Virus record (IMG/VR): IMGVR_UViG_3300043418_000125 | Coordinates: 1-54,147 of that record | Origin: a virus | Length of the DNA stretch: 54,147 nucleotides | Reading direction: 5' to 3' (one strand) | In this document: positions 6,591 to 54,147 of the stretch, piece by piece | Position numbering within the stretch: the first letter of the stretch is position 1 | Layout: the number at the start of each line of letters is the position of its first letter | Made by a program: the position numbers and the translations under genes | Notes under the pieces: generated by a model | The model's input: the letters and a program-made list of their open reading frames with translations, nothing else | What the model was told of the DNA's origin: nothing | The model's database searches: none

Positions 6591-6923
6591 TCAGCAACCT
6601 TTCTTCATGGAGCCTGCGACCTTCACCGCACCGCCGTTGGCCATCTTGGCCATCGAGCCGTACTTCTCGGCAGACATCTTGCCGGAGGCCAGGTCTTTGC
6701 CGGTCTGGGCGAGTTTGCGTGGGTTGGATTTCTCGCCTTCACGCTTTTCCTCGACCATTTCCTTCTGCACGTATTGCTTCGGAGTGACCTTGCCAGAGCG
6801 CACAGCGCGCGCTTCGGACATTTCCTCGGCCTTGGTGTCTTTGCCGGTGAAAGGCTTGGCCTTGCCGCCGTCAGCGAAGCCAGCGGGGATTACGCCTTTG
6901 GCGGGTTTGGTGATTTTCTTCAT
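6591..6923 (-). CDS. Small basic protein downstream of portal
   Basis: A 110-aa lysine- and glycine-rich protein with two FADGGKAKPF / MANGGAVKVAGSMKKGC-type segments at its ends. Such ADGG/ANGG-containing proteins often flank portal genes. Its start overlaps the portal stop by 4 bases (ATGA). A minor head protein is likely, but function is unknown. The C-terminal Cys is unusual for such a polar protein. Confidence 0.7.
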   Translation of the reverse strand: MKKITKPAKGVIPAGFADGGKAKPFTGKDTKAEEMSEARAVRSGKVTPKQYVQKEMVEEKREGEKSNPRKLAQTGKDLASGKMSAEKYGSMAKMANGGAVKVAGSMKKGC

Positions 6924-32644: not shown

Positions 32645-33709
32645 ATGGCGCTTTATAGAAGAGAGAAGTCGAAGGTATGGTGGATTGACGTCACTGCCCC
32701 CAACGGACAGCGGCATCGCGTCACAACCAGGACGACCAACAAGCAGCTCGCCAACGAGTTCGAAGCCAAGTTCGTCACGGATTTGTACAAGACTCAGCGG
32801 TTGGGCCTGCAAGGGGATCGCCGGTTCAGTGAAGCAATCAAGGTGCTGCTGACCGAGAAGGAAGGCAAGGACGTCTACATCGAGTACGAGCGCCAGCTCG
32901 GGTGGTGGCTTGAACAGTTTGGCGACATTCTGGTCAAGGACATTACCAAGGGGTTGATTCTCGACACGATAGCGCTCAAAGAGGCGACGGTTTCAAAGGC
33001 GACTTGCAACCGTTACCTCTCTGCCCTTCGAGTTTGTTTGAACCTGGTGAAGAAGAAGCACGGCTGGATTGAGCAGGTGCCGGATTTCTTTATGAATCAG
33101 GAGAGCAAGGGTCGGGTTCGCTGGCTGAAACCCGATGAAGTGGCGCGGCTGATTTCCAGCTTACCGGAACATCTGCGTGGGCCTGCGGTGCTGGCGCTGG
33201 CAACAGGGTTGCGCCGCAGTGTGGTGACAGGATTGAAGTGGGGTCAGGTGGACTTGGTGCGCAAGGTCATCACCATTGATGGTGAACACATGAAGAATGG
33301 TGAAGACCTGGGCATCCCGTTGTCAGAGATGGCGGTGGCGGTGCTGCGTGAACAGATCGGCAAGAACGTGGAGAACGTCTTCACGTACTGCGGTCGCTCG
33401 TTCAAACGCTGTTCTGAGAAAACCTGGGACAAGGCTTTGGAGAAGGCGGGTATCGAGGATTTCAGGTGGCACGATTTGCGCCATACCTGGGCCACCTTGA
33501 TGACGCAGGCGGGGGTACCGGATGCGGTGCTGATGACCTTGGGTGCGTGGAAGACGCTCTCGATGGTTCGTCGGTATGCGCACCATGCCACCGAGTCGGT
33601 TCGTCCGCACGCTCAGGCGGTGGACGGGGCGCTCTCTGGGGTCATGTCACAAATCCTGCCACACCCTCCGACCGGAGTGAATGTTCACCCACTTCGGAGA
33701 GTCATGTAA
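32645..33709 (+). CDS. int: Tyrosine integrase
   Basis: A 354-aa protein. An N-terminal arm-binding domain and a SAM-like core domain (residues ~60-150) precede the catalytic domain with Arg190 (LALATGLRRS), His276 and Arg279 (HDLRH), Trp302 (GAWKT) and nucleophile Tyr311 (RRYAHH). It would recombine attP with the bacterial tRNA-Ser gene. The gene ends 12 bases before the tRNA-like attP core, the usual layout of tRNA-integrating phages. Start at 32645 has AAAGGACT upstream. Confidence 0.95.
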   Translation: MALYRREKSKVWWIDVTAPNGQRHRVTTRTTNKQLANEFEAKFVTDLYKTQRLGLQGDRRFSEAIKVLLTEKEGKDVYIEYERQLGWWLEQFGDILVKDITKGLILDTIALKEATVSKATCNRYLSALRVCLNLVKKKHGWIEQVPDFFMNQESKGRVRWLKPDEVARLISSLPEHLRGPAVLALATGLRRSVVTGLKWGQVDLVRKVITIDGEHMKNGEDLGIPLSEMAVAVLREQIGKNVENVFTYCGRSFKRCSEKTWDKALEKAGIEDFRWHDLRHTWATLMTQAGVPDAVLMTLGAWKTLSMVRRYAHHATESVRPHAQAVDGALSGVMSQILPHPPTGVNVHPLRRVM

Positions 33710-34422: not shown

Positions 34423-37400
34423 CTATTTGGATCGAGCCATCTTGATTCGAGCCTCCTCGACCTGTTTGGCATAGTCTGTTCGGAGCTGTTGAATGCGCTC
34501 AATCTCGAGCCGCTTCTCAGCGCCGGACATCGTGGCGTCATCCTCGACTACCTTGAGCTGCTTGTTCAGCTTGGATAGGCTATCCGAGGCTTTGGCGTAC
34601 AGCTTGCTCATGGAAATCTGGTCGCCCTTCTCTTCGGCAATCGCCTCAGCCCGTTTGTACTGGCCAAGGTTGATGAAGTTCTGGTAGTCGGCCACCGCAG
34701 TCGCAGCTTCCTTGGCGTTCTCGTAGAACGAGGTGACGTACTTCGACTGGCCTTGCGGCATGGTCTTCACGTAGTTTCCCACCACCAAGAAGTCGTCGAT
34801 GCGCTCAAAGCGCGATGACTCACCTGGCTTGAGCGGAGCAACCGCCATGTTCGATGTCGCCTGCATGGCGGTACCGACCCAACCCAAATACCCCCGAATG
34901 AGGTAGTCGTACTGGATGGGCGAGAGCTGCATGTTGTCGGCGTTGATCGCCCCGCCGGTGACGGCAGAGGCCATCTCGGCAAACATGCCGTTGATCTTGC
35001 CCAGACCCACCGCCACGGCAGACGTGCCCTGGTTGACTCGGTTGCCAACAGACAGACGCTCCATGCCCATCGACTCGATTGGTCGGCTGGTGAAGCCATC
35101 CTTGTTGCGAGCGATGTCGTACACGGGGCGAACAATCTGGGGCACAGGGTTGATGGCCAGGTTGTCAGCGAACACCGCCAACAGACGGCGACCGAACACC
35201 TTGCCTTCCACGTTCTTGTCCACGAGCTGCTCGGTAAAGCGCTCGACGATGGTCTCGAAGGCGCCCATCTCGAATGGCTTGGGGATGCGCAGGCCGGTCT
35301 TGGTGCCAGGCACCTTGAACCAGAAGAACGCGTCACGTTCCCAATCCTCCAGCGCCTTGTAGTCGTCGTCATCCTTCTGGCTGAGGTACAGCACGATGCC
35401 GAACATCGTGATGGCGCCCAACACAGCAGAGAACTTCGCGGCTTTCTGGCGCTCGGACTCTGTTGCATTTCCGCTGAGAGACTGAACCACTGGGTCTAAG
35501 CCGTCGCGGCCGAGCTTGTACAGGCCCTGCAAGCGAGCATTGAAGTACGGCAGGATTTGGGACAGATACCGCACTGCAACAAAGCCACCTTGCAGCGAGA
35601 AGTCCTGCAAGTCACGGGCAGCGTATGCGGCCTCGAGGTGGGTGGCACCGTTCGCACGGAGCTGGTTGTACAAAGCGAGGCGGTTGGAGTTTTCCATCGC
35701 GTCACTGATTTCGTCGTATTTGTCCCACACACCCTTGAAGGCTTCCTTCACCTTGGTCTCGGTGGTGAGGATGTCCTTGTTGGGAACGCCCTTGCGGATG
35801 AGGTGCTTCACATTGGAGGCAGCATCACCGTCAAAGGCGTTGCCCATTGCAAAGATGCCGCCGCCAGCCAGAGCTGAGGCGCGGTCATCTTTGTACGCAC
35901 GCCATCCTTCGATGACGTTGGCGATGGGGTTCTTATTCAGCTCGGAGATGCCGATGGACTGAACAGAGTCGCGGATCAAGTTGTTGATCTTGAACGTGGG
36001 GCTGAGGGAGATGAAGCGAGTCAGCGTGGTCTTGAACTCGCGAGCCGTGTTCGTCCAGAAGCCGTAGCTAGGCACGCTGGCCACCGCATCCAGCGAGGCC
36101 AACAGGAACTCGTCGTCAATGCGCCAGTGTTGCTCTTTGCCATCGACCATCGTCTTGACAGAATCCTTCTCGGCGACTTTGAGTTTGGTCACAATGCCGC
36201 CCATCTGCATGGCAGAGTTGAGCGTTTCATTCGCAGCTTCGTTTTTCATCGACGCAGACAAAATGTGCGACCAGTTCATCAGCACGTTTTCCATCAGGTC
36301 GTTGAGCGGACGCTCGGAGCCTTTGAGCTTCTTCGACAGGTACTGGCCAACGGCAGCAGTGGATGTCTGGGCACCCGACAGGCTGCGGTCGTCATCCATG
36401 TTGCGGTAGAACGGCACGTACCAAATGTCAGACGAGAAGCGCTTGTACGCTGCCTCGTCAATGAGACCGTTGGTGCGAGCGATGTCGAGAACAGAGCGGT
36501 TCAGCTCGTTCATCTGTTGCAGGGTGTTGACGTACAGCGCCGCGCGCGACTTGCCATCTTTGGTCGTGCCCAGGTTGAGCTTCTTCAACTCAGCAATCTC
36601 GTCGTCCTTGAAGAAGTGTTCGCGGTCAGACTTCTTCAACTCGCCTGCGCGGTTGGCAGCAATCCACAGCAGGAAGCGGTCAACCTCGATGCCGAGCGGT
36701 TGCAAGACTTCGAGCAGACCCTTGGTGCCCTTCTTGATGTTGAGAGCGCCATCGTCGTTGAACACCTGGCCGTAGTGCAGCAGCGCGGAGACAGCGCCGT
36801 CTTGTGGGCCGTTCGACATGCGCAGCTTCATGTACGCCTTCATGTCCAGGTCGCGCACAGAGCGGAACTTATCGAAGGTGCCCTGCACCACGCGCAGCCA
36901 GAAGCGAGGCTTCAATGCCTCAAGGCGCTCTTGGATTGATGGAGGCGAGTAGTGACCCTTGGCCAACGCAATGGCGCGTGCCTTGGGTGAGAGGTCGTCG
37001 TACTGAGCCTCGTAGTCGTGGCGACGGAACATGGGCAAGCCATCCTCAGCCACGATCTGTTGCAGCTTCTCGGGAATGACGAAGCCGAGCTGTTGCCCAG
37101 TGCCTTCGATGTTCATCACCTCAACCTTGCCGCCCATCTCTTTCTTGCCAATCAAATCCTTTACCACAGACGGTACGGTCTGGTTGTAGTAGCTGGCCAC
37201 GCCATCGCCACCAATGTCCATCTCTTCGCCGACCAGCTCGAGCGTGCCGCCATCGTTGATGGCTTTGTTGGCCAAGTCCTTGCCGACCGTAGCCGACAGT
37301 TCTTTCTGGCCGACACCCTTCTGGTTGATGACGCTGGCACCAGCCTTGTTGCCCACCACGTCGAACGTGCCGTCATCGTTTTGTTTGATGGTCAGCTTGT

Positions 37401-40400
37401 CAACAGAGTTCGACAGTTTGTAGCGGTCAACCTGTTGCTCGCCGGTAGTCCATGCGATGCGGTTGATACCCTGCTCTTGGGCGTAGGCAATCGCACGCTT
37501 CAACAGAAGCGCAGTCCATGCCTTCGTGTCTTTCATCATCGGCGCGTCGGGCACCTTGCCCTCTTCGTTGCCGAAGCCAAGCTCGCGACCGTCTTGGCCA
37601 CGCTGGCTTTGAATCTCTTCAAGGAACAGAACGTCGTTGCCGTCCATATCCTTGCGCTGGTTCATGCGAACCCAACCGAGGTGCTTGCCACCTGACTCTG
37701 GGCCGAAGTGGATCTCGTCAAAGTCTTTGTACGGCTTGGTGCGGCCGGACGGTTCGGTGACGATGAGTTCGACGTAGTTCTTGCCACCGGCCAATGTGTA
37801 CTGGCGGTGCTTGGTGCCCTGCAACAGACGAGGGTCGAGCGACAGCTCATCAATCATCTCCTCGCGGGTCAGGTCGATGTCTTCCTCGAGCGTGCCAGTC
37901 TGGTCGGCGTACATTGAGCGGATGTCTTCGTCGCTCAGGCGCTTACCGGCGCCACTGAGAATGACGTCGTTCAGGTGCAGCTTGTTGCCAGCAATGAAGT
38001 CCAGAACCTGTTGCTTCGTGACCTTGCCGGTTTGCATGGCCAGCCAGTCGTTCACGCCAGTCCATTTGATTTCCTCTTCGCGCACGCCAGGGAGCTTGCC
38101 GATGATGGCAACCCAGTCCTTCGCCTGTGCGGATTCCTGCTTGGCAGCGCGTGTGGCACGCTCAAGCGCTGAGTAGAAGGTCGGAGCCTTGCCACGCATC
38201 TGGCCTTCCAGCATGGATGCGTCAGCGGCCTTTGTACCGCCCTTACCTTCTTCACCTTCGCCATCGACAACGAACTTGCGTGCGTTGCGAACGAGCTGGT
38301 TAATCTCGTTGTTGCTGGCGTAGGCAATGTTGAATGTCTCACGCAGCCATTTGCGGATGGCGGCGTAGATCGTGCGCAGTGCAGACTTGGCATCGGCATC
38401 GAGCTTGTCGCCCTTCTCCGCCATGTCGGCCAAGACTTCCTCGGTGGCCTCCTCGAGTGCGAGACCTTCTTTGACCATCATGGCTTCTGCACGCTGGCGA
38501 ACAGTCTTGTTGCCGTTGAACAGACCACGCATGGTCTCTGCGTGCTTCTCGCCCAGGATCGAGCGCAAGCCGAAGTGGCCTGCGATTTCGTGAGCGATGG
38601 TCAGGATGGCGTCGTTGGCGTTGTGGATGTTGCCAGCAACCAAGTACACCTTGCCATTGAGGTAGATGCCTGGCACCTTGTTGGCCATACCGGCGCGTTT
38701 GATGCGAGTTAGCGTTTTGATCGGCAGGTCATCCTCTGTCTCGAGAACAACCACGTTGGGCATGTTTGCCCACTCGCCAGTCATCTTGGCCAAGACCTTC
38801 TTGACATCGGCCTTGTTCATGCCGGTGTCGCCAACCGTGGTCACACGGTAGTGAGCCTTGTAGCCTTTGTTGAGCTGCGCAATTTCGTTCAGCTCGCGCA
38901 TGGCACCGATGAAGTCACCAGATTCCGCCATCTCTTTCAGGCGAATCTCGTCCTCCATATCCAAGGCGTTGTCGTTGTACGCCTTGTCGATGCGCTCAAT
39001 AGCCTTCTTGAGCTTTACAGGGTCAACCTTCGGGCTGGCCTTCTTTACTTCTGGTTCGGGTTCTGAGCGCTGCTCAGTTGGCGCTTCGCCAGTTCGTTCT
39101 TCACTATTCTGGCTCGGGCTTTCGGTGCGAGCTTGCTCAGTGCCACCATCCCCTTCAACAGATTTTGCTTCCTTAGCTTGTCGAGCGACTTCATCATTGA
39201 TTTCTTCCTCAGTGAATCCAAGCGCCAGCATAGCTGAACGCAGGTCAGTATTGCTCTCGCCACCAATGGCGATTGCATCGTCAATGTCGAACAAGCTGGC
39301 ATCGTCCAGCTCGCCCACGTATTGCATGGCTTCGCGCTCTGCCGCCTCGTAGCCATCGTCACCTTCGTCTAAGAAGGCTTGGTCTTCTGCATCTTCCTGC
39401 TCGCGCTGGCGCTGCTCCTCCATGCGCTGTGCAAGGATGTCATCAGCGTCGTCGCCGTACAGGGGTGCAATCTTCTCACCGCGCATGGCGCGTTGGATGA
39501 GTGCATAGATTTCGTCTTGGCCACCGATGGCGTCCTTGGGCAAGAAGCCACGCTCGGCAGCGTAGGTCTGCAAGTCATCCAGCGACAGTCCGGTCTTGCG
39601 GAACACAGGGCCGTAGCCAGACGCCATGAATGCGCGGCGCTCTTTGATGCCAGGGGCAAACTCCAGCACGACATCGAGCTTGATGCCGTAACGGCCGAGG
39701 AACGCCTTGAATGGGTTGTCCTTGGCCAGAGCTGAACGCAGGCGATCACCAGCAGAGCGTTTCTTTTCTTCCTTGGTCTGTTCGACTTTGGGAGTTTCAT
39801 CGACATGTTTTGCAGACGTGTCGTTTTCAGGCTCGGCTTTCGACACGACAGGCTCGGCCTTTGGTTCAGCCTTGGTTTCCTCGGCCTTTACTACCGGAGC
39901 TTGTGGCGCTGCTACCGGAGCTGGCTGCGCTGCTACCGGAGCGGCTGCTGGCTTCTGCTCGAGCGCGAGGGGTTTGCCCTTCACGCCATCCTTCACCCAT
40001 GACTTGAATGCCGCCATAGGCATTTCGCTGATGGCGCCCAAGCCAGTCCAGCCTGGGGTGTAGTTGGCCAAGTACGCCTTGCGTGCCTCGGCCTCGGTGT
40101 TGAAACCGACAAGCGCCTTGTGTTCGTCGAAGCTGCCGTCTTTGTTTACTTGGTCAACGACGAACACCTTCTTGCTGCCAGGGTTGCCGCCGATGAAGAC
40201 GTCAACGTGGTCTTTGTCTTTGCCGACAGTGCCCTTGATGTAGCCATAGTGGTTGGCCATCGTGTTCTTCCACTCGGTACCGTCAGGAGACTTACCGCTG
40301 CGCTCGGAGCCAGCAGGGTTCTCGATGGCGATACGCAAGCCGCCCACAAACTTCGGTGGGAGGTGCCCCTTCTTGTAGACGCCAGACTTCTTCTGGGCCT

Positions 40401-42477
40401 CAGTGGGTTGTGGCGTGTCATTGAGCGGACTGGTCGCAGCTTGGTGCGCAGCCTCGTCGATCTGCTCGACAGCGGATGGGGTCTCAGGTTTCTTGCGGCC
40501 CTCGATGAAATAGAACATGCCACCGCCAGCAGCCTTGGCTCTCTTGCCTTGGCGAATCTGGAACTCCATGTCATCAACAGAGCTTGCGTAACCACCCTCT
40601 CGTTGACCAGTTTCCTTGTTCTTGGGGCCGAGCAAAAAGGTCTCGGCTTGGGCCATGCTCACAAACTTGTTGCCCACGGTCTGTTGGCCAACCTGGAACG
40701 TAGGCATGACGTCGTAGCCTTCCTTGCGAGCCACCAGGTCTTCTGGTGACATGGCCACGGTACCGGCTTGGTTTGTGGTCTCAGGCAGAACGACAGGTTG
40801 AGCCTCACCTTCGAGGGTTTTGGTTTCCTCGTTGGGGGTCACGCTGTCGCGGCGAATCACTGGGTCTGTTGCGCCAGTATTGCTGCCGATGCCGGTCGAT
40901 GCCGTGTCGCCATAGGCAGCACGCACATCCTCGCCACGCTCTTTGGTGCGCTTGGCCTGCTCCTCTGGGGTGACAGGCTCGACACCACTGAGCATCTCTT
41001 TTACGCGCATGGCTTGCGTCACCACAGCGTCGAAGCGTGGGTCATCAGACGACTCAATGCCAGCGGCACGCAGGGCGGCAGCTACCTTGGGGTCGTCTTG
41101 GAATGCAGCGAAGACTTCGGCGCGGCCGTCCTCAGTGGATAGCTTCTGCTCAAACATCGAACGAGCTTGCTCGATGGTCATCTTCTGGTCTTCGCCCTCG
41201 CCACCCTTCTTGCCGAAGGCGCCCTTACCTGCACCGAACAGCACGCCACCCACCGCACCGGCAGCAGCCGAGTCGATGTAGTCGCGGATGGCTTCGGATG
41301 TGGCCAGGTCTTTACCGGCGCCAAAGCGCTCAAAGCCGGTTTGCACAGCTTCGGTGGTGGACTCACGCAAGCCACCCTTGAATGATTCAACAGCCAGGTT
41401 GCGCACCAGGCCGTTGCCGCCGAGGGCTTTCGTTAAACCCTTCACGGCAAACAGATCAGATACCGTGTCTGTTGCAGCGGCAAGGACGGCACCCGTCCAC
41501 ACTCGGCCCAGATCAACGTCACCACCTTTGGCGGCATCCTTGGCGTCGCCGTAGATGGACGCGCCTTCCATTGCGAGGTTCTGGCCAGACACGGCAGCGG
41601 CTGCGCCGACGCCCTTCATAACCGACTGCGCTGCTTGGGTATAGGCGAGCTTCTCCGCTTCGGCAGCGGCCATGCCCTTGCCTGCGTTGACAGCGATGTT
41701 CTTGGCGACCTCACCCTCGAGCTTGGCAGCGATCAGTTTCTTGATGCCGGTCTGTGCTGCGCCGCGCGCAAACGTGCCTTCGACAGCGCCTGCAACGGTA
41801 CCGGCGCCAGGCAGGACAGAACCAACAGCAGCGCCAGCACCGGCCGCAACCAGTGTCTGCGCAGCTTGGCCAACAGCATAGCCGCCCCAGTATTTGAAGA
41901 AGTCACCGAACGACGCCTTGCCGTCCATGACATTGCTGAACGACTCATAGTCCTGCGCATCCTTCTGGGACTCCTCTTTGATGCCCTTGTAAGAGTCATA
42001 CAACTTGCCCGAGGTTTCCTTGGCGCCAACAGTGTCAGCCAACAAGGCTGCACCACCGACCGCCATCTCTTTGGCCGAGTCAATGCCGCCAGCCTTCAAG
42101 CCGCGAGCTGTTGGCCCCGACGCTGGTTCAGCGGGTTTCTGGGTCTCAGTCTGGGCAGGCTCACTCCATGAGCCTGGCACTGCGAACGAGATGCTTGGAG
42201 AATCTGTTGCAGTCTGTTTGGGTTGCGACACAGGCTTGATCGGCGCACCTGCCAGCGAAGCGGGGAATGCAAATGAGATAGGAGCTGGAACTGGAGCTGC
42301 GGCTTGCGTGTTGTCAGGTAGCGGCTCAACCTTGCGAGACAACTGAGGGTCAGTCTTCTCCTTGAGGCCAAGCACATCCTGGCGGAGCGCCGTCTTGCTA
42401 TCCAAGAACAACCCGTCCGAGTCGTCTTCCTGAGTACGAAGCAAAGGGGCGGGGCGCCCCAGTCGCAGATCATCCAT
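34423..42477 (-). CDS. Giant ejected polyvalent virion protein
   Basis: A 2,684-aa protein, the last gene of the late block. Visible parts: N-terminal Pro/Ala-rich region and Gly/Ala hydrophobic stretches (~195-360); an inorganic-pyrophosphatase-like polyvalent domain (YGYIKGTVGKDKDHVDVFIG, ~715-835); an LPD-type domain (NPFKAFLGRYGIKLDVVLEF, ~915-1010); a metallopeptidase-like domain with HEIAGHFG (His1296, Glu1297, His1301); a FGPESGGKHLGWVR and FLEEIQSQRG region (~1590-1640) known from large polyvalent proteins; and an LPD38 domain (~2015-2450: IWYVPFYRNMDDD, NPIANVIEGWRAYK, YFNARLQGLYKLGR), then a hydrophobic LGAITMFGIVLYLS and a C-terminal coiled coil. Such proteins are packaged and enter the cell with the DNA. 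It follows two smaller internal virion proteins by 3 bases. Confidence 0.85.
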   Translation of the reverse strand: MDDLRLGRPAPLLRTQEDDSDGLFLDSKTALRQDVLGLKEKTDPQLSRKVEPLPDNTQAAAPVPAPISFAFPASLAGAPIKPVSQPKQTATDSPSISFAVPGSWSEPAQTETQKPAEPASGPTARGLKAGGIDSAKEMAVGGAALLADTVGAKETSGKLYDSYKGIKEESQKDAQDYESFSNVMDGKASFGDFFKYWGGYAVGQAAQTLVAAGAGAAVGSVLPGAGTVAGAVEGTFARGAAQTGIKKLIAAKLEGEVAKNIAVNAGKGMAAAEAEKLAYTQAAQSVMKGVGAAAAVSGQNLAMEGASIYGDAKDAAKGGDVDLGRVWTGAVLAAATDTVSDLFAVKGLTKALGGNGLVRNLAVESFKGGLRESTTEAVQTGFERFGAGKDLATSEAIRDYIDSAAAGAVGGVLFGAGKGAFGKKGGEGEDQKMTIEQARSMFEQKLSTEDGRAEVFAAFQDDPKVAAALRAAGIESSDDPRFDAVVTQAMRVKEMLSGVEPVTPEEQAKRTKERGEDVRAAYGDTASTGIGSNTGATDPVIRRDSVTPNEETKTLEGEAQPVVLPETTNQAGTVAMSPEDLVARKEGYDVMPTFQVGQQTVGNKFVSMAQAETFLLGPKNKETGQREGGYASSVDDMEFQIRQGKRAKAAGGGMFYFIEGRKKPETPSAVEQIDEAAHQAATSPLNDTPQPTEAQKKSGVYKKGHLPPKFVGGLRIAIENPAGSERSGKSPDGTEWKNTMANHYGYIKGTVGKDKDHVDVFIGGNPGSKKVFVVDQVNKDGSFDEHKALVGFNTEAEARKAYLANYTPGWTGLGAISEMPMAAFKSWVKDGVKGKPLALEQKPAAAPVAAQPAPVAAPQAPVVKAEETKAEPKAEPVVSKAEPENDTSAKHVDETPKVEQTKEEKKRSAGDRLRSALAKDNPFKAFLGRYGIKLDVVLEFAPGIKERRAFMASGYGPVFRKTGLSLDDLQTYAAERGFLPKDAIGGQDEIYALIQRAMRGEKIAPLYGDDADDILAQRMEEQRQREQEDAEDQAFLDEGDDGYEAAEREAMQYVGELDDASLFDIDDAIAIGGESNTDLRSAMLALGFTEEEINDEVARQAKEAKSVEGDGGTEQARTESPSQNSEERTGEAPTEQRSEPEPEVKKASPKVDPVKLKKAIERIDKAYNDNALDMEDEIRLKEMAESGDFIGAMRELNEIAQLNKGYKAHYRVTTVGDTGMNKADVKKVLAKMTGEWANMPNVVVLETEDDLPIKTLTRIKRAGMANKVPGIYLNGKVYLVAGNIHNANDAILTIAHEIAGHFGLRSILGEKHAETMRGLFNGNKTVRQRAEAMMVKEGLALEEATEEVLADMAEKGDKLDADAKSALRTIYAAIRKWLRETFNIAYASNNEINQLVRNARKFVVDGEGEEGKGGTKAADASMLEGQMRGKAPTFYSALERATRAAKQESAQAKDWVAIIGKLPGVREEEIKWTGVNDWLAMQTGKVTKQQVLDFIAGNKLHLNDVILSGAGKRLSDEDIRSMYADQTGTLEEDIDLTREEMIDELSLDPRLLQGTKHRQYTLAGGKNYVELIVTEPSGRTKPYKDFDEIHFGPESGGKHLGWVRMNQRKDMDGNDVLFLEEIQSQRGQDGRELGFGNEEGKVPDAPMMKDTKAWTALLLKRAIAYAQEQGINRIAWTTGEQQVDRYKLSNSVDKLTIKQNDDGTFDVVGNKAGASVINQKGVGQKELSATVGKDLANKAINDGGTLELVGEEMDIGGDGVASYYNQTVPSVVKDLIGKKEMGGKVEVMNIEGTGQQLGFVIPEKLQQIVAEDGLPMFRRHDYEAQYDDLSPKARAIALAKGHYSPPSIQERLEALKPRFWLRVVQGTFDKFRSVRDLDMKAYMKLRMSNGPQDGAVSALLHYGQVFNDDGALNIKKGTKGLLEVLQPLGIEVDRFLLWIAANRAGELKKSDREHFFKDDEIAELKKLNLGTTKDGKSRAALYVNTLQQMNELNRSVLDIARTNGLIDEAAYKRFSSDIWYVPFYRNMDDDRSLSGAQTSTAAVGQYLSKKLKGSERPLNDLMENVLMNWSHILSASMKNEAANETLNSAMQMGGIVTKLKVAEKDSVKTMVDGKEQHWRIDDEFLLASLDAVASVPSYGFWTNTAREFKTTLTRFISLSPTFKINNLIRDSVQSIGISELNKNPIANVIEGWRAYKDDRASALAGGGIFAMGNAFDGDAASNVKHLIRKGVPNKDILTTETKVKEAFKGVWDKYDEISDAMENSNRLALYNQLRANGATHLEAAYAARDLQDFSLQGGFVAVRYLSQILPYFNARLQGLYKLGRDGLDPVVQSLSGNATESERQKAAKFSAVLGAITMFGIVLYLSQKDDDDYKALEDWERDAFFWFKVPGTKTGLRIPKPFEMGAFETIVERFTEQLVDKNVEGKVFGRRLLAVFADNLAINPVPQIVRPVYDIARNKDGFTSRPIESMGMERLSVGNRVNQGTSAVAVGLGKINGMFAEMASAVTGGAINADNMQLSPIQYDYLIRGYLGWVGTAMQATSNMAVAPLKPGESSRFERIDDFLVVGNYVKTMPQGQSKYVTSFYENAKEAATAVADYQNFINLGQYKRAEAIAEEKGDQISMSKLYAKASDSLSKLNKQLKVVEDDATMSGAEKRLEIERIQQLRTDYAKQVEEARIKMARSK

Positions 42478-42480
42478 TTC

Positions 42481-43878
42481 TTAGTCCTTCGGCAGCAAAA
42501 TCTTCTTACCGTTGATTGTCACGTATGGCAGACCAGATGCTTGGTCAATTCCATCAGCGCCCTTGCCTTCTGCAAATCGACGTTGCAGGACAGGCATCGC
42601 GGAAACGATTGCTGCCGGTGGCACTTTGCGTTCATTGAGCGAGTACAGCGACTGCGCGTAGCTCGACACCTCGCGGCGTTTTTCATGCTCGGCACGGGCC
42701 TTGGCATAGTCTTCACGCTCACGGGGCATCATTGCCGCAATCTCATCCTTCGGCTTGACCTCGAAGTCCTTGACGCCGAACGAGCTGTTGAACATCTTGC
42801 CAGCGCTCTCGTCTTCCTTGAGCTGTTGGGCACGCTCAGTGATGGCGGCGTTGGCAGCGCGTGTGGTCTTGTTGGTCGCAGCGTTGTCTGCGGCACTTGC
42901 GGCGTATGCCTTGGAGTGCAGCATCTGCGCATCGGCCGTCTTCTCCTTGGCGCCAAGCTCTCGGCCTTTGAAGTTGTTCTCGACGTCCATCTGTACCAGA
43001 CGTTCTGGGCTGAGGGTGCCGAGTGCGGCAAAGATGTTGTTGGCAGGGATGTCTTTGGTGGTGGGCTTGCCATCTGGGCCGGTAACAGTCACACCTTTCC
43101 AGACGTGAGTCTGTTCGTCGTAGGTGCCGCCCTTGTAGTTCAAGCCGAGACCGGCCTTCTGGGCAAACTTGCTCACCATGTCCATCGCGCCAGGGTCGCC
43201 ACTGACCACAGCGGCAGAGGCGGCTTTACGCAGCTCGTCTACCGCGCTGTTCTTCCACTCGTCAATCTTCTTGTCGAGTTCCATGCGCTTGTCGAGCTGG
43301 CCAGTCTTCTCGTAAAACTCGCCGTAGATGTTCTTGAGGCCGTCCCAGTACAGGTCATTGGCCTGCTTCTGGTTCTTGTACAAGCCTTCGCCGTTTGACT
43401 TGAAGATGTCCATCTGGCGTTGAGTCATCGACAGAGACTTCTGCTCAGGAGCTGGCGCAGCGGGTGCAGCGGGTGCAGCGGGTTGGCCAGGCGTGCCAAT
43501 GGCCTGCGTTGGGGCAAGCTGAGGTGCTGGCGCTTGGGCTTGAGGATCAGGCTGACCAGTGGAGATGGCTTGCTGGCGTGCGAACTTGGCGTTCTCTGCG
43601 CGGTCGTAGCTGGCATCGGCCAGTTCACCAGTCTGTTTGGCTTCGTCGTTAATCTCGGCGCCTGGCAATTTGCCATTCGCGAATTGCGAACGCCACTGAG
43701 CAGTCTTCTCGCCCACGGCTTTCAGCTCGTCACGAATGCGAGTCTTCTCTTCTTGGTCGCCCTTCTCCCACTCGAAGCGCTGCTTGTCGCGCTCGTCCGC
43801 TTCCATGCGGCGTGTGTTGTCGCCATAGTCTTTGACGCCTTGCGCCATGCCGGTGGCGATTGCTGAAATCACGCTCAT
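42481..43878 (-). CDS. Internal virion protein
   Basis: A 465-aa polar, helical protein. The N-terminus has a coiled coil (NTRRMEADERDKQRFEWEKG), then a Pro/Ala linker (residues ~110-145) and long helices around MDIFKSNGEGLYKNQKQAND. The C-terminus ends INGKKILLPKD. It sits between the giant polyvalent gene and another Ala-rich protein, the place of ejection proteins in podoviruses. It probably forms part of the injected core or tunnel. No enzyme motif is present. Confidence 0.75.
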   Translation of the reverse strand: MSVISAIATGMAQGVKDYGDNTRRMEADERDKQRFEWEKGDQEEKTRIRDELKAVGEKTAQWRSQFANGKLPGAEINDEAKQTGELADASYDRAENAKFARQQAISTGQPDPQAQAPAPQLAPTQAIGTPGQPAAPAAPAAPAPEQKSLSMTQRQMDIFKSNGEGLYKNQKQANDLYWDGLKNIYGEFYEKTGQLDKRMELDKKIDEWKNSAVDELRKAASAAVVSGDPGAMDMVSKFAQKAGLGLNYKGGTYDEQTHVWKGVTVTGPDGKPTTKDIPANNIFAALGTLSPERLVQMDVENNFKGRELGAKEKTADAQMLHSKAYAASAADNAATNKTTRAANAAITERAQQLKEDESAGKMFNSSFGVKDFEVKPKDEIAAMMPREREDYAKARAEHEKRREVSSYAQSLYSLNERKVPPAAIVSAMPVLQRRFAEGKGADGIDQASGLPYVTINGKKILLPKD

Positions 43879-43880
43879 TC

Positions 43881-45128
43881 TTATGCTCCCTTCAAAGCGC
43901 TGCGGCGCTGTACTGCTGCTGGCGTGTGGGTCTTGGCCACCACCTTGTTGAGCTTGTTGACGCCGATGGCACGCACGGTGTCGGCTGGCAGGACGTACTC
44001 GCCGTTCGACAGCTTGGCGTCGATGACGTCATCCACGGGGCCACCTGGGCCGCGCACTGCGCCACCACCGCGATGAACCTTGCCGCCGTCCGCAAACACC
44101 TTGGCACCCATCGCGCCGTTGGCAGCGCCAGCACCGGTGCCGGTCACGCCGTATCCGATGGCTGCACGCACGCCCATGTTGGTCAAGCCGGACAGAGCCG
44201 AGTCAGCCGCAGCCTGTTGGCCAGCCGCGATCTTGTAGCCGGTACCGTACAAGTTGCCTGCGCCGTAGTACGAGTTCGCAGCGTTGCCCATCTGGCTGCT
44301 GAACGAACCGTAGGCCGAGCCGAGCGCAGCGCCTGGGGCACCGGCGGTACTCAAAGCGGCAGAGCCGGAGTTGACACTCGAGTTGCCAGCCGATGTAGCA
44401 ATGCCGTAAGCAGTAGACGAGTTCGAGGCCAAGTTACGGCCGAGCGATGCAGCGTCCATCTTGCGTGCGTAGCCAAGCTGTTCGGCATTGGTGCGTGCAT
44501 TGGTTGCGGCACCGGCCTTGTCAGCGGCTTCGCCTTGGGCGAGCTGCATGTTCAGCGCGGCAAATCGGTTGGAGTTGGGGTTGACGCCATAGCGTGCCAA
44601 CGTGTCCAGAGCCTGCTTGCGCTGTGCGTCATAGGCTTGGCTGACATCAGCCATACCCTTACGCGCCAGCTCTTCCTGCTTGGCGTCTGTGTTGTAGCTG
44701 TTGGCGTCATCGACCAGACTCTGTTCCAACGGACGGAAGGTGTTCTTCTCGTAGTTGGCATAGTCTTGAGCGCGAGCTTCGTTCGATGCAGCGATGGTGC
44801 TTTGCTGCTTCATGGTGTCGAGCTGCGCCTGGGACACGGCTTCAGCCAAGGGCTTCATGTCGGCATACTGCTGCTTTTGGAAGTCCAGATATTCGCGAGC
44901 GGTCTGCTGCTGAATTTTTGCCGCCTCGGCAGTGGATGCGGCCTGTGCGCTCATGCCTTGGGCTTGGGCGTTGGCTGCGCTCTCCGCGCTGCTCGATGCT
45001 TGGTCGGCGGCAACGTATGTGCCCACCACCATGACAGCAGCGGCAGCCACGTTGCAGAAGCGACGGTTCTGGAACTCGTCATCAAAGTCGCGGTCGCGCT
45101 CCAAGAACGACTTGTGAAGTTTTCGCAT
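43881..45128 (-). CDS. Internal virion / ejection protein
   Basis: A 415-aa Ala/Gly/Ser-rich protein: a membrane-like span near the N-terminus (NVAAAAVMVVGTYVAADQ), coiled coils, a Gly/Ala region, and a C-terminal motif GGGAVRGPGGPVDDVIDAKL followed by SNGEYVLPADTVRAIG. This motif is common in podovirus internal virion proteins of the ejection core. The start at 45128 has GGGG upstream; a longer frame would overlap the acetyltransferase gene. It probably acts with the two downstream proteins. Confidence 0.8.
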   Translation of the reverse strand: MRKLHKSFLERDRDFDDEFQNRRFCNVAAAAVMVVGTYVAADQASSSAESAANAQAQGMSAQAASTAEAAKIQQQTAREYLDFQKQQYADMKPLAEAVSQAQLDTMKQQSTIAASNEARAQDYANYEKNTFRPLEQSLVDDANSYNTDAKQEELARKGMADVSQAYDAQRKQALDTLARYGVNPNSNRFAALNMQLAQGEAADKAGAATNARTNAEQLGYARKMDAASLGRNLASNSSTAYGIATSAGNSSVNSGSAALSTAGAPGAALGSAYGSFSSQMGNAANSYYGAGNLYGTGYKIAAGQQAAADSALSGLTNMGVRAAIGYGVTGTGAGAANGAMGAKVFADGGKVHRGGGAVRGPGGPVDDVIDAKLSNGEYVLPADTVRAIGVNKLNKVVAKTHTPAAVQRRSALKGA

Positions 45129-45129
45129 T

Positions 45130-45588
45130 TCAATCCCCGATAAATTTCGTGTAGAGCCGCTCTGTCTCGTGCCAACCAAGGCGCTCGAAGATTCGACCCA
45201 TGTCCAATGACAGCTTGGTGCCGGTAAACATCTTCTCCACGCCGCGAGCTTTTAAAGTCTTCTCGGCTTCTTTGAAGAGTTTCACCCCGACCATTCCTTT
45301 ACGGTGGTCAGGATGAATGAAGTACATGTCCGTGAATGCGGACAGACTGTTTCGATAATGCAGATGACCCTTCACGATGCTGACGTGATAACCAATCATC
45401 TTTCCCTCGCACCGCGCAACGACCAAATGCAGAGCGCCTTTGTTGGCGATGTCTGCATAGGTTGCGTAATCAGGGTCGAGCGGGATGGTGTCTTTGTTCA
45501 TGGCCACCTCATCCCAGTGCAGGGGCCACAGCGCTTCCATTTCTTTCAGCGCATCAAACCAGTTTTCAACAGCGTAGGTAACAGTCAT
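45130..45588 (-). CDS. GNAT acetyltransferase-like protein
   Basis: A 152-aa protein. The acetyl-CoA loop region is DMYFIHPDHRKGMVGVKLFK (R/Q-x-x-G-x-G/A variant), preceded by strands with ALHLVVARCEGKMIGYHVS. It belongs to a clade often found in the virion module of podoviruses. It may modify a virion or host protein. It overlaps the hydroxylase gene by 4 bases. Confidence 0.8.
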   Translation of the reverse strand: MTVTYAVENWFDALKEMEALWPLHWDEVAMNKDTIPLDPDYATYADIANKGALHLVVARCEGKMIGYHVSIVKGHLHYRNSLSAFTDMYFIHPDHRKGMVGVKLFKEAEKTLKARGVEKMFTGTKLSLDMGRIFERLGWHETERLYTKFIGD

Positions 45589-46136
45589 TTGCTCACCTTA
45601 ATGTCAACGATTAAGTGAGTGCGATCTTCTGCGCTGTTGTTGATAACTTCATGCTCTTTGGTGTTGTCGAACCACCAGACTTCGCCGGTCTTCATCTGCA
45701 CCTGTTCATCACCCGCGCGGAACACGCAGCCTGGCTCACTCTTCAAGACGATGTGGAATCGCTCGTAGTACGTGGCAGGAGAGCCTTCATCGCAATGGGG
45801 TCTGATTCGCGAACCTGGCTTGAGCTTGGTAATCAAGCATCGGCCGAGGCGCTCACCTTCGACACGAGCCATCAAACCAAACACGAGTGGTCGTGCTTGG
45901 GGCAGGATGATGAATGGCGCATAGTTAATGCACTCAATCGCATCCATGATTTGAATGTTCGTGGTCGAGGTGTCGATGGGATTGAATCGCAGCCAGATGT
46001 CATCTGCCTCGTCATGCGGAGAGTTCGGGTAGGTGGTTCGCAAATCGTTGCCGTTCCACAAATCCGGATGTAAAGCGAGTGCCACATTCAATGGCGTTAC
46101 ATCTATTCCCTCTGCAATCTTGAGGAAGTTTTTCAT
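45585..46136 (-). CDS. Aspartyl/asparaginyl beta-hydroxylase-like dioxygenase
   Basis: A 183-aa protein with the double-stranded beta-helix motif of Fe(II)/2-oxoglutarate enzymes: RPHCDEG (His114, Asp116) and EHEVINNSAEDRTHL (His162 as third ligand; Arg172 for 2-oxoglutarate). The Asp/Asn hydroxylase family adds a hydroxyl to protein side chains. It lies in the tail module next to a GNAT gene. A virion protein substrate is possible. The ligand residues are intact, so it may be active. Confidence 0.8.
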   Translation of the reverse strand: MKNFLKIAEGIDVTPLNVALALHPDLWNGNDLRTTYPNSPHDEADDIWLRFNPIDTSTTNIQIMDAIECINYAPFIILPQARPLVFGLMARVEGERLGRCLITKLKPGSRIRPHCDEGSPATYYERFHIVLKSEPGCVFRAGDEQVQMKTGEVWWFDNTKEHEVINNSAEDRTHLIVDIKVSK

Positions 46137-46154: not shown

Positions 46155-46355
46155 TTAATGAGCGTTGATACGCTCAATTATCTCGTTAATCTTGGAAACT
46201 ATTACCGCTAAATCTGTCGTGCCGGTGGGCAGGGGTTTGATTATTTCTCCCCGCACTCCCGTGAGTAACTCGATGTTTTCTTTCATCGGCATCAGGATTC
46301 GCTGGAGAGCGGTATCGCTGATGCCTTGGATGCCAGGAATTGCAGGCTTTTTCAT
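46155..46355 (-). CDS. Small tail-module protein (66 aa)
   Basis: Starts MKKPAIPGIQGISDTALQRI, with a coiled-coil-like C-terminus (VIVSKINEIIERINAH). The start at 46355 overlaps the upstream stop as ATGA. It may be a small tail or ejection chaperone. The longer frame from 46442 lies in the gene upstream and is rejected. Confidence 0.65.
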   Translation of the reverse strand: MKKPAIPGIQGISDTALQRILMPMKENIELLTGVRGEIIKPLPTGTTDLAVIVSKINEIIERINAH

Positions 46356-48166
46356 ATCGTTGCCAGCTCTTTCGATGTCTCGGCCACCTTGATGAATCGC
46401 AGCGGCACGTTGCCGTTGACCTGAAATTCCCATCGGTCGCACTTAAACCCAGAGGGCAGGCGGAACGGCTGGTGGTTCTTCACGTAGATGGTGGCTCGCA
46501 GCACGCCGTCGCCGTAGATGGTCAACGTGACAAAGCGCTCATCAATCAATGGGATCGGGTTTAGCACCGAGCCGTTGAGCAGCATGGTGTTAATGGGCGT
46601 GTCGTTGACTCGACCCAACAGACCAGAAACAGATGCCCAGATGGCTCTGTTCTTGGCCTTGATGTACTCGATGAAACTCAGCTTGTCCTGGTCGCCGATG
46701 GGGTTCGAGTTCTCGAAGTCGGCATCAATCTGGCCAGCGCCGAGGTTGAGCGGACGGGGGAACACAAAGACCTTCGACTTCCACTCGTAGGGCAAGCCGT
46801 TGTACGGGTCGCTGTCCCACCCCTTGATTTCGCTGTCTTCGCAGACGAAGAGCTTGGCGTTCACAGGGTCGGTGTGAGCAGCGGTCGCGTACAGGTTGGT
46901 CTCTGTCAGCGGCGATGCGGCTTGGTTACGGTCAAGAATCAAACCGCCCTTCTTCTTGTCCGTCTTGTAGAACAGGAAGTAGCGTCCATCCTGCACCTCG
47001 CCCACCATCGAGGATGGGTTGTACAAGGCCCACTCGTCACGAGTGAACAGGTTGCGCGTCACGTTGTCCACCACGCTCGGGCCAATCTTGATGATGCCGT
47101 TGGGTGATGCGTACATGGCGCCCTGCTCGTCGCTCGCGATGGAGCGCTTCGAGACACAGGGTTCGTACAGGGGCAGCTTTTCCTGCGACATGCCAGCAGG
47201 GTTCGAGCCGGTGATGACGAAGGGGTTGCCTTTGGTGCCCACCACCAACGAAGAGCCGTAGGCAGCGAGGCCGACGATGGGGTATTCCACCGCCAGCGCG
47301 TACTCAGGAGGCCATGCGTGAGGCAGGAAAGGCTCCGAGAAGAAGACCTGATTGCCAACGAAGCCAGCCATGATGCCGTTGGCCATGCTGACCAAGCCGC
47401 GCAAGCCGTCAGGTGGAGGCGCCCATGTGGTTGAAGGCAGCGAACCACCCAAGGCCACAGCACTCAGGCTGTCGGAGTAGCTGGTCGTGCCAATCGAAAC
47501 GTCTGCCACCTTGAGGAATGAGGTCGCCGAGGTACCAGTCACCGAGCGGTACACGCGCACCTTGGTGATGTTGTACTTGCCGAACGGAGCGGCGGACGGC
47601 AGGCCGGAGACCACCACGGTACCTCCTGGGCTGACCGTGACCTGGCTGGACACGGGTGATGGCCCCGACTCTTCCTCAATCGTCCCGAACATCGAGATGT
47701 AGGTGTAGAGGTAGACACGGTTCTCAGACGTGCCAGAACCGCCCGAGGCGGACACGGTAGGGGCCGAGGCAGGGTTGGGTACACCCATGAGCAAATAGTC
47801 GCCAGGAAACGGGCCTGAGCCAGTTTCAGCCAGCGCGGCATTGGTCTTCTTGGGCTTGCCGTCACCAGAGCCGGTGTAGTACAGAGGGCTACCGCTGTCG
47901 TAAATGGGGCCAGCGGCCACGTCCACGTCGTCAGCGAAGGTCAGCCACAAGTCGTCACCGGCGCTGTTCAGCGTGCGGTAGATGGTCAGCGGGACAAACG
48001 AGGTGATGAGGCGGCGCGGGTCAAGGATGCCTGGGCGCTGCCACGAACGAACCTCGTTGCTGTACAACTTGGTATTGATGGCCTTCTGGGCCTCGCTCTC
48101 CTGCAACAGATACGGGCTTTGGCGTGGCACGAAGCCAGCAAAGCCTTGCAGTTTGATTCCGGCCAT
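46352..48166 (-). CDS. Tail structural protein, beta-rich
   Basis: A 604-aa protein starting MAGIKLQGFAGFVPRQSPYL. Strand-rich with a propeller-like middle: VYLYTYISMFGTIEEESGPS (fibronectin-like), then LRGLVSMANGIMAGFVGNQV and PVVDN-type repeats. Podovirus tail-tube or needle-hub proteins of ~600 aa have this look. It lies between the endolysin and the injection genes. No enzyme motif. Confidence 0.7.
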   Translation of the reverse strand: MAGIKLQGFAGFVPRQSPYLLQESEAQKAINTKLYSNEVRSWQRPGILDPRRLITSFVPLTIYRTLNSAGDDLWLTFADDVDVAAGPIYDSGSPLYYTGSGDGKPKKTNAALAETGSGPFPGDYLLMGVPNPASAPTVSASGGSGTSENRVYLYTYISMFGTIEEESGPSPVSSQVTVSPGGTVVVSGLPSAAPFGKYNITKVRVYRSVTGTSATSFLKVADVSIGTTSYSDSLSAVALGGSLPSTTWAPPPDGLRGLVSMANGIMAGFVGNQVFFSEPFLPHAWPPEYALAVEYPIVGLAAYGSSLVVGTKGNPFVITGSNPAGMSQEKLPLYEPCVSKRSIASDEQGAMYASPNGIIKIGPSVVDNVTRNLFTRDEWALYNPSSMVGEVQDGRYFLFYKTDKKKGGLILDRNQAASPLTETNLYATAAHTDPVNAKLFVCEDSEIKGWDSDPYNGLPYEWKSKVFVFPRPLNLGAGQIDADFENSNPIGDQDKLSFIEYIKAKNRAIWASVSGLLGRVNDTPINTMLLNGSVLNPIPLIDERFVTLTIYGDGVLRATIYVKNHQPFRLPSGFKCDRWEFQVNGNVPLRFIKVAETSKELATI

Positions 48167-48182: not shown

Positions 48183-48653
48183 TTAAGCTGTGGCGAATTG
48201 TCGTGCGTACTCGTCGGCAGACAGCAAGCCTTGCGCGTATTTGTTTTGTGGACGGAAGATGGTGAGCTTCTGGCCGCGCATCTCAGGGGCAAACGAGATG
48301 TGAGTCCAGCGTGCGTACTCGTGAATCATCTGGTCGAACTTGATGCCCGATGCTTCGATGGCCTTGCATACAGCCAAGGGGTCGCCAAAGCCAGCGCATG
48401 TGAAGTCGATGGCCCAACCATCCATGTGTGAGGAAACCTTCGATCCGCCCACTGCGACGTTCACGTCGGGAAGGCGCAGCCACGAGTTCACGTGGATCGA
48501 CTTGCCCAACAGAGCGCGAATCTGTTCCATGCCAGCAGCAGCGTGCTTCATGTTCTCAAACTGCAACGTGCTTGGCTGATTGCTGATTCCCATGCGGACA
48601 GCAGTCTCAGAGTAAGTGGCTTCTTCGAGGGTGAAGTGTTCGGAGAGGTTCAT
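48183..48653 (-). CDS. Endolysin, M15 peptidase
   Basis: A 156-aa protein. The D-Ala-D-Ala peptidase motif SSHMDGWAIDF gives His76 and Asp83, and WTHISF gives His118 as third zinc ligand. It would cut the peptidoglycan stem peptide during lysis. No signal peptide is visible, so it needs the holin. It overlaps the holin-like gene by 4 bases. Size matches phage peptidase endolysins. Confidence 0.88.
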   Translation of the reverse strand: MNLSEHFTLEEATYSETAVRMGISNQPSTLQFENMKHAAAGMEQIRALLGKSIHVNSWLRLPDVNVAVGGSKVSSHMDGWAIDFTCAGFGDPLAVCKAIEASGIKFDQMIHEYARWTHISFAPEMRGQKLTIFRPQNKYAQGLLSADEYARQFATA

Positions 48654-49147
48654 TTGTGCAGCGCCTTCATTGCGTCGGTTTTGTCCTTGCTGCCCTGGCT
48701 GGAGCCAAAGTAGAAGCCAAGGACTTGGGTGGCCGCGCTGGTGATGAAGCCGAGCGCGTAGATGATGATGTTTTCTTGCGAGTCGGGGATGTTCGCGAAG
48801 ATGAGCAAGCCGATCAAAAAGAAGGCCAAGCCCACGGTGCCGAGCGCCAGAATGGGTGGGGTCAGCTTCTCAAGGATATGGGCGTTCGCGCTGGTGGCGA
48901 TGGCGGTGTGCGCGGCGCGCGCGCTGTCGCGGTCGGCGTTCTCGAGCTTGAGCTTCTCAAGGTCAATCTCAGCCAGCTTGGCGGCAGCTTCGGGATCGCG
49001 TGCCACAGCGGTGGCCACAGCCTCAACCGTGTCAGCCACACCGAGCTTGTCAGCCATTGCCTTGACGGCCGCGCCACCCAACGGGCCAGCCACCACGGTG
49101 GCCAGCGCGGGTGCTGCGCTCTTCAACAAATCAAGTAGCTTGTCCAT
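48650..49147 (-). CDS. Holin-like membrane protein (GTA_holin_3TM type)
   Basis: A 165-aa protein. The N-terminus has a hydrophobic/amphipathic region (SAAPALATVVAGPLGGAAVKAM), a charged helix and two strong spans near the C-terminus (PILALGTVGLAFFLIGLLIF and IIYALGFITSAATQVLGFYF). This resembles the GTA-type three-span holin. It is next to the endolysin with a 4-base overlap. Start at 49147 was preferred over a longer frame that would run into the neighbouring gene. Confidence 0.78.
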   Translation of the reverse strand: MDKLLDLLKSAAPALATVVAGPLGGAAVKAMADKLGVADTVEAVATAVARDPEAAAKLAEIDLEKLKLENADRDSARAAHTAIATSANAHILEKLTPPILALGTVGLAFFLIGLLIFANIPDSQENIIIYALGFITSAATQVLGFYFGSSQGSKDKTDAMKALHK

Positions 49148-49445
49148 TGCTGTCGCCAGTTGTGTCTTTGGGAGCGGTGCTACCGCCTTTGCGTCCGGAG
49201 ATGGCACCCATTGCACCAACGCCCATGAAGGCGATGGCTTTCAAGATTTCGAGGAACACGGCGTCGATAGGCGCGAGGGTCGAGTCTTCCGGTACAAAAG
49301 CCACGGAGTACAAGATGCCGAAGGCGATGCCCAACACCATGACGGTGATTGCGCGAACCACGAACGACCATGTGCGGACTTCGATTTCGTCTTCGGTCAA
49401 ACGATTAGTTGGACGTGTCATCCACAGTTGAATTAGCTCTTTCAT
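49131..49445 (-). CDS. Second holin-like membrane protein
   Basis: A 104-aa protein with two spans (SFVVRAITVMVLGIAFGILY and FLEILKAIAFMGVGAMGAIS) and a hydrophilic C-terminus. It overlaps both neighbours. Together with the larger protein it could form a holin/antiholin pair, or be the real holin. Order in the lysis cassette supports a lysis role. Confidence 0.72.
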   Translation of the reverse strand: MKELIQLWMTRPTNRLTEDEIEVRTWSFVVRAITVMVLGIAFGILYSVAFVPEDSTLAPIDAVFLEILKAIAFMGVGAMGAISGRKGGSTAPKDTTGDSNGQAT

Positions 49446-53735: not shown

Positions 53736-54065
53736 TTAAGAGATTTCGAGAACGGATGTCAGCACGTCAACCGAGCTGGCCGTATCGGAGACAACAGTGA
53801 TCTTGTCACCGGCCTCGAGGACAACCTTCTGGTCGCCGCCGATTGGAATGAGTGCACCACCCACGGGAATCAATGCGCCCTTCACCAAATACACCGCCAC
53901 GCCACCGGCAGTCACCTTGATGTCTGCGTTGACGTTGTTGGCTGTGATGTTGGCAACAGACATGCCAATGATGGTTGCTTGCACGCCTGCACCGGCTGTG
54001 TACACATCAGCACCGGCTGTGCCGACGCCTGCGCTTACGTAGTTCTTGAAAGTGTTTGTAGCCAT
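53736..54065 (-). CDS. Small structural protein spanning the contig join
   Basis: A 109-aa protein starting MATNTFKNYVSAGVGTAGAD, with VIGMSVANIT-like and VVLEAGDKITVVSDTASSVD segments typical of small phage head or tail decoration proteins. The start is in the repeated bases, so the same start appears at 45 on the left end. It belongs to the late block that continues through the join. Confidence 0.78.
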   Translation of the reverse strand: MATNTFKNYVSAGVGTAGADVYTAGAGVQATIIGMSVANITANNVNADIKVTAGGVAVYLVKGALIPVGGALIPIGGDQKVVLEAGDKITVVSDTASSVDVLTSVLEIS

Positions 54066-54147
54066 GATGTTTCCTTACAGAGCGATTGCAAACGCGAGTG
54101 CGCTGCCGAGAGTGGTTGAGCTGCCGTCGATGGCCTCTTGCTGAATT
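54021..54147. repeat. Terminal direct repeat, right copy
   Basis: Identical to bases 1-127; see the left copy. Removing one copy gives a 54,020-bp circle. Confidence 0.95.

Follow-up and report, generated by a model that had tools for sequence, protein, structure and literature searches.

The giant gene of this temperate phage encodes a polyvalent protein that would be packed into the virion through its C-terminal module (the C-module), ejected, and processed by a zincin-type metallopeptidase domain, freeing an InPase domain and a GNAT-like domain as cargo in the host. We give this reading a probability of roughly 0.6. The protein is of a known kind, belonging to the polyvalent proteins of Iyer et al. 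(2017; PMC5512222). Its chain combines an InPase, a zincin and a predicted GNAT fold, in agreement with the first-pass annotation, which had called it polyvalent.

Genome and reading frame

The window, by which we mean the whole stretch of DNA analysed, is a 54,147-base IMG/VR record. It carries an exact direct terminal repeat of 127 bp (positions 1-127 and 54021-54147), of the type left by an assembler on a circular or permuted genome. The record is hence a complete genome of about 54,020 bp. It encodes a terminase, a portal (6920-8941), a major capsid protein and an integrase (32645-33709). The structural genes are read from the minus strand, starting near 10.7 kb and running to position 1; on the circular map they continue from 54 kb to 34,423, and the giant gene closes the structural operon. 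No close cultured phage was found at the DNA level for positions 30000-54147.

The giant ORF (34423..42477, minus strand) is a single open frame from ATG to stop, encoding 2684 aa (about 294 kDa). It occupies 14.9% of the complete ~54-kb genome, which bears out the share of about 15% proposed earlier. The plus-strand reading of the same positions is riddled with stops. The ATG follows the stop codon of the preceding gene (42481-43878) at a distance of 3 nt and is immediately preceded by AAGGA. Two contigs, both from a single sample, are 100% identical to the window where they match it; the only part of the ORF that they do not cover is 41216-41274. Furthermore, full-length relatives span 2418-3304 aa, and the length of the ORF is therefore not an assembly artefact. 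No place covering 80% of the protein was found in 50,697 phage records. In one relative (L018) the sequence is spread over two ORFs (1769 aa and 1055 aa), owing to either a frameshift or an error.

Domain layout

Relatives on viral contigs (41 loci) show five parts, namely an N module, InPase, zincin, the region 1433-1833 and the C-module. The combination and order of domains had been thought possibly new. This cannot be maintained, because the identical five-part layout is found on two more contigs of uncultured viruses (L100 and L119). A separate 4317-aa protein (L127:348-13298) has N-like, InPase, zincin and GNAT matches and no C-module match.

The N module (aa 1-664; 40486..42477, minus strand) contains an Ala/Gly-rich tract at 201-300 and belongs to no Pfam family. 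Close relatives have it, as do a few further viral contigs, and it gave no match across the 50,697 phage records. The family assignment of the InPase domain (PF18823, aa 693-829; 39991..40401, minus strand) is certain from its Pfam match (E 6.6e-54; 181.9 bits against a cut-off of 26.8). The acids D754, D759, D784 and E785 are kept in 30/30 rows of the alignment and D756 in 28/30, so that the domain described earlier as pyrophosphatase-like has its conserved acids intact. It is followed by a linker (aa 839-1150; 39028..39963, minus strand) with a net charge of -25 within aa 1001-1100, of which residues 907-1150 are 40% identical to L022.

At E values up to 1, Pfam found only InPase and LPD38 in the giant protein and no lytic transglycosylase, as the first-pass annotation had remarked. 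In the middle parts of 10 relatives the sole match was InPase in L003, the rest falling below the cut-off.

A portal identity was considered and rejected. The sole PDB sequence match, the portal 9b41_L, aligns through its InPase-like C-terminal stretch only, and the real portal of the genome is the gene at 6920-8941. InPase domains also occur fused to true portals.

The HExxGH zincin

Alignment and model place a zincin-type metallopeptidase domain of the HExxGH form at aa 1206-1423 (38209..38862, minus strand). The HEIAGH motif occupies aa 1296-1301 (38575..38592, minus strand), and E1347 (38437..38439, minus strand; 28/28 rows) is the proposed third zinc ligand. The 28 rows were chosen as homologues of the window zincin, with L058, L154, a few distant matches and near-duplicates excluded. 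None of them departs from H1296, E1297, H1301, E1347, R1375 or R1379, and 27/28 keep G1300. A metallopeptidase-like domain had been proposed earlier with His1296 and Glu1297 exactly as placed here.

The predicted model of aa 1195-1833 (pLDDT 84.5) shows a helix, three strands, the HEIAGH helix and a later helix with E1346/E1347; the zincin residues are held by model helices 93-128 and 147-160. This order of elements matches the one given for zincins of polyvalent proteins by Iyer et al. (2017; PMC5512222), who also describe one set with four residues separating the histidines, the HEXXXH form. The window zincin is thus a known variant rather than a new type of site. Taken together, the conserved residues and the model argue that the HEIAGH domain is a zincin-type metallopeptidase. 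The rows of the fold search with this model covered model residues 305-625 only, the part behind the zincin, and a zincin profile search against PDB sequences gave nothing meaningful. A conserved cleavage site after the zincin was not found; Gly-Gly is present in some close rows and absent elsewhere.

A predicted GNAT fold

The region that follows (aa 1433-1833; 36979..38181, minus strand; bounded by model and alignment) begins with an N-terminal subdomain of ~70 aa. It had been annotated as an LPD-type domain, an assignment that we replace by a predicted GNAT acetyltransferase fold. The VIA search aligned aa 1499-1819 (model residues 305-625; 37021..37983, minus strand) to GNAT folds. Among the 50 matches listed, mostly acetyltransferases by title, Z ranged from 9.6 to 7.3, the best superposing at 3.5 A over 142 residues. 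In line with this, the top Foldseek matches of the model were spermidine/spermine acetyltransferases (SSAT, E 7.2e-4, prob 1.00). Pfam missed the domain in the window protein: Acetyltransf_1 matched 1/62 rows (E 0.009), and the window row had no match.

The residues E1621, Q1623, S1624, W1654, W1676 and R1685 are kept in 51/51 rows. So many invariant polar and aromatic residues suggest that the GNAT-like domain is an enzyme. The usual acetyl-CoA motif of GNATs is RxxGxG/A, which was not seen in canonical form in the window GNAT region. A profile search of the region against PDB sequences gave nothing meaningful.

In a scan of IMG/VR, 384 of 557 pattern-matched stretches were confirmed as members of this GNAT-like family, of which the best 80 were kept. 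Judged by these sequence matches, the family is common in uncultured phages, while it is rare in cultured ones (4/50,697 records at the sensitivity used). The domain was also present in 2/398 bacterial genomes drawn from the phylum of G001, in one of them within a 4815-aa frame. A limited search of the open-licence PMC literature did not find this GNAT assignment.

Residues 1434-1502 (37972-38178) are 54% identical to pieces of cyanophage ORFs labelled 'lysin'. It is possible that this opening stretch of 70 aa moves independently of the rest of the GNAT region, as a small domain.

The C-module and probable virion packaging

The C-module (aa 1845-2680; 34438..36945, minus strand) is a predicted all-helical virion module, its model being almost entirely helical (pLDDT 82.4, pTM 0.82). 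It includes LPD38 (PF18857, aa 2370-2553; 34819..35370, minus strand), whose earlier assignment is certain from the Pfam match (E 2.3e-32; 113.1 bits against a cut-off of 27). The 'hydrophobic stretches' announced earlier come down to one segment inside the C-module, besides the Ala/Gly tract at 201-300. The only 19-residue window that reaches a Kyte-Doolittle mean of 1.4 is aa 2347-2365 (35383..35439, minus strand). It is kept in 37/47 rows, with another such segment elsewhere in the module in 1/47.

Searched with the C-module model, Foldseek gave nothing below E 1.2 and VIA nothing at Z >= 8, which is not proof of a new fold. T7 ejection proteins were absent among the matches listed by both programs, and a profile search against PDB sequences gave nothing meaningful. 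The C-module matches many phage proteins, several of them labelled large polyvalent protein. It terminates within 15 aa of the protein end in 54/60 proteins. In contigs of bacterial genomes it was found at 39 loci, mostly Proteobacteria by title.

Two ejection-type proteins had been proposed upstream of the giant gene. The nearer one (465 aa; 42481..43878, minus strand) gave no match in family searches. The next (432 aa; 43881..45179, minus strand) belongs to a virion structural family, phrog_8003, and is a homolog of BcepIL02 gp66 (33% identical over part of its length). Further upstream lies an internal virion protein (phrog_511; 46352..48166, minus strand) that is 35% identical to BcepIL02 gp63. 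In BcepIL02, gp63 and gp66 precede gp70 in the same order as in the window, and the C-module profile matches gp70 (E 4.4e-56). Part of the structural gene set is similar to that of Bcep22-like podoviruses. Only 3/15 window proteins match the BcepIL02 region at E up to 1e-3, so that this kinship is confined to some structural genes.

The counterpart of gp70 in phage JC1 is gp69 (4515 aa, LPD38 at 4195-4401), which was detected with 51 unique peptides in CsCl-purified virions and stands second in the table of virion proteins (PMC9144972). Because this homolog of the C-module is present in purified virions, the window protein is likely packaged as well.

Two further genes of the structural operon come after that of the internal virion protein and before the giant one. 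They encode an aspartyl/asparaginyl beta-hydroxylase (45585-46136, minus strand; PF05118, E 2e-20) and, separately, a small GNAT (45130-45588, minus strand). BcepIL02 likewise has an acyltransferase at the corresponding place. A tRNA-Pro (AGG) was predicted at 49007-49096 (minus strand), within a holin-like ORF (48650-49219), and may be a false call or the relic of an attachment site.

A nearly constant peptidase and proposed exchangeable cargo

We compared 60 C-module proteins (113 ORFs reduced at 90% identity) and placed them on a quick tree with long branches flagged. An HEx(2-3)H motif lies within 1400 aa upstream of the C-module in 57 of them; InPase is present in 11, GNAT in 26 and the N module in 14. 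Where the frame starts inside the locus (n=51), the corresponding numbers are 49, 9, 20 and 14. In a separate count the motif was found within 900 aa upstream in 61/67 proteins, against 1.9 expected from shuffled sequences. For this count, 132 C-module ORFs were narrowed to 106 (>800 aa upstream, >500 module positions) and then to 67 (80% identity). Four of the six exceptions have a motif elsewhere in the ORF (L017, L046, L132, L152), and two have none (L080, L170). No earlier statistics on the pairing of C-module and zincin were found in a limited search of the open-licence PMC literature.

The zincin in this slot is not always of the same type. A profile of the second type, HE[LM]VH, gave no match to the window protein, and a profile comparison of the two types was not significant. 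Their layout is alike, however, and a distant common origin is likely. With types assigned by profile match (L031 is borderline, having HEALH yet matching the HExxGH profile), the C-module tree shows at least 15 changes of type, against 24.9 in shuffles. The zincin type is therefore inherited to a degree, yet often exchanged. For instance, the nearest row on the tree (L003; 73% identical in the C-module) keeps InPase (67%) and GNAT (54%), but carries the other zincin in the same slot.

The close relative L107 has extra sequence separating zincin and GNAT. Pfam found ART-PolyVal in 1/62 scanned rows, and we infer that it belongs to L107.

We read the C-module and zincin as a carrier with its processing protease, and InPase and GNAT as exchangeable cargo. 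The helical C-module (1845-2680, with LPD38 and one hydrophobic helix) would retain the protein in the particle together with the internal virion proteins, and the giant protein would leave the particle with the DNA. The HExxGH zincin would process the protein, most likely its own chain, during packaging or entry. The freed InPase might then hydrolyse pyrophosphate or a nucleotide-like signal, and the freed GNAT-like domain might acylate a host target. Processing of polyvalent proteins by zincins was already proposed by Iyer et al. (PMC5512222); what is new here is that the peptidase, from its near-constant presence beside the C-module, is treated as a part of the carrier and not as cargo. In the open-licence PMC literature we recognised no later study of how polyvalent proteins are processed or of the acetyltransferases they carry. 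Counting against the mechanism, the window protein, unlike JC1 gp69, has no lytic activity for crossing the wall.

Moreover, self-cleavage need not follow from the presence of a zincin, since the N4 virion RNA polymerase (vRNAP) and two zincin-bearing plasmid proteins are reported to be packaged or transferred uncut (PMC5512222). An alternative explanation might be that the zincin is itself an effector that cuts host proteins after ejection, while the chain acts as an unprocessed multi-enzyme. Iyer et al. list this possibility along with the uncut proteins, and the differing zincin families in the slot could reflect differing host targets. Yet, the clear cargo domains are patchy (InPase 11/60, GNAT 26/60) compared with the zincin motif (57/60). 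Such near-constant company of the virion module is what would be expected of a component of the carrier, although it is not decisive. We consider an effector role of the zincin possible, but doubtful. It is quite improbable that the giant is mainly a structural ejection or tail-core protein with enzyme-like domains as decoration or envelope-crossing aids, because the InPase and zincin active sites are intact and the domains are gained and lost around a persisting C-module, even though the gene ends the structural operon, adjoins internal virion proteins and encodes a single hydrophobic helix in its C-module (37/47 rows).

Most giant phage proteins carry labels such as 'hypothetical', 'portal' or 'methylase'. 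The window protein suggests how they can be read, with a virion module that stays constant, a peptidase that is almost always present and cargo that can be exchanged. Should the cargo be freed by the peptidase on entry, the attached domains would form a catalogue of proteins of the first minutes of infection, and the GNAT-like family would be among the commoner early-acting domains in uncultured phages. More speculatively, the C-module and metallopeptidase might be a general phage carrier of any attached chain, in which the protease is repeatedly swapped between zincin types in a kept slot and cuts the cargo free in the new host. The GNAT-like family would then be an unnamed effector that acts early and is common among uncultured phages. 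We offer this only tentatively.

Comparison with known systems

Like the polyvalent proteins of Iyer et al. (PMC5512222), the window protein joins disparate activities in one large chain and adjoins virion genes, a late-gene context. Their descriptions include InPase, zincin-like peptidases with the HEXXXH form, two GNAT families and LPD38. No feature of the window protein places it outside this group.

The DarB-like giants JC1 gp69 and BcepIL02 gp70 share with it a homologous C-module with LPD38, a position at the end of the structural operon and an HExxH motif upstream of the C-module. They are larger (4515-4667 aa versus 2684 aa), and the window protein carries InPase and GNAT where JC1 gp69 has a lytic-transglycosylase-like domain (80-192) and methylase/helicase family matches (PMC9144972). 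The N4 virion RNA polymerase (gp50) is likewise a giant ejected protein, with a zincin (HELVH at 2228). It bears a polymerase instead of InPase and GNAT, and the C-terminal region after its zincin is needed for encapsidation (PMC5512222). This C-terminus showed no homology to the C-module (hhalign probability 0.6%), a weak test with one N4 sequence.

Ejection proteins of the T7 gp16 type have an N-terminal lytic transglycosylase, which Pfam did not find in the window protein.

The nearest cultured candidate found with zincin and C-module is protein WNO49116.1 of Achromobacter phage CF418P1. It also has 2684 aa, an InPase region (match from residue 682), a HEVVGH zincin and a C-module, and is located ahead of the lysis genes. 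Unlike the window protein, it has no GNAT match. This polyvalent protein (L166:6532-14586) is labelled 'putative portal', a label that InPase fusions to true portals may explain.
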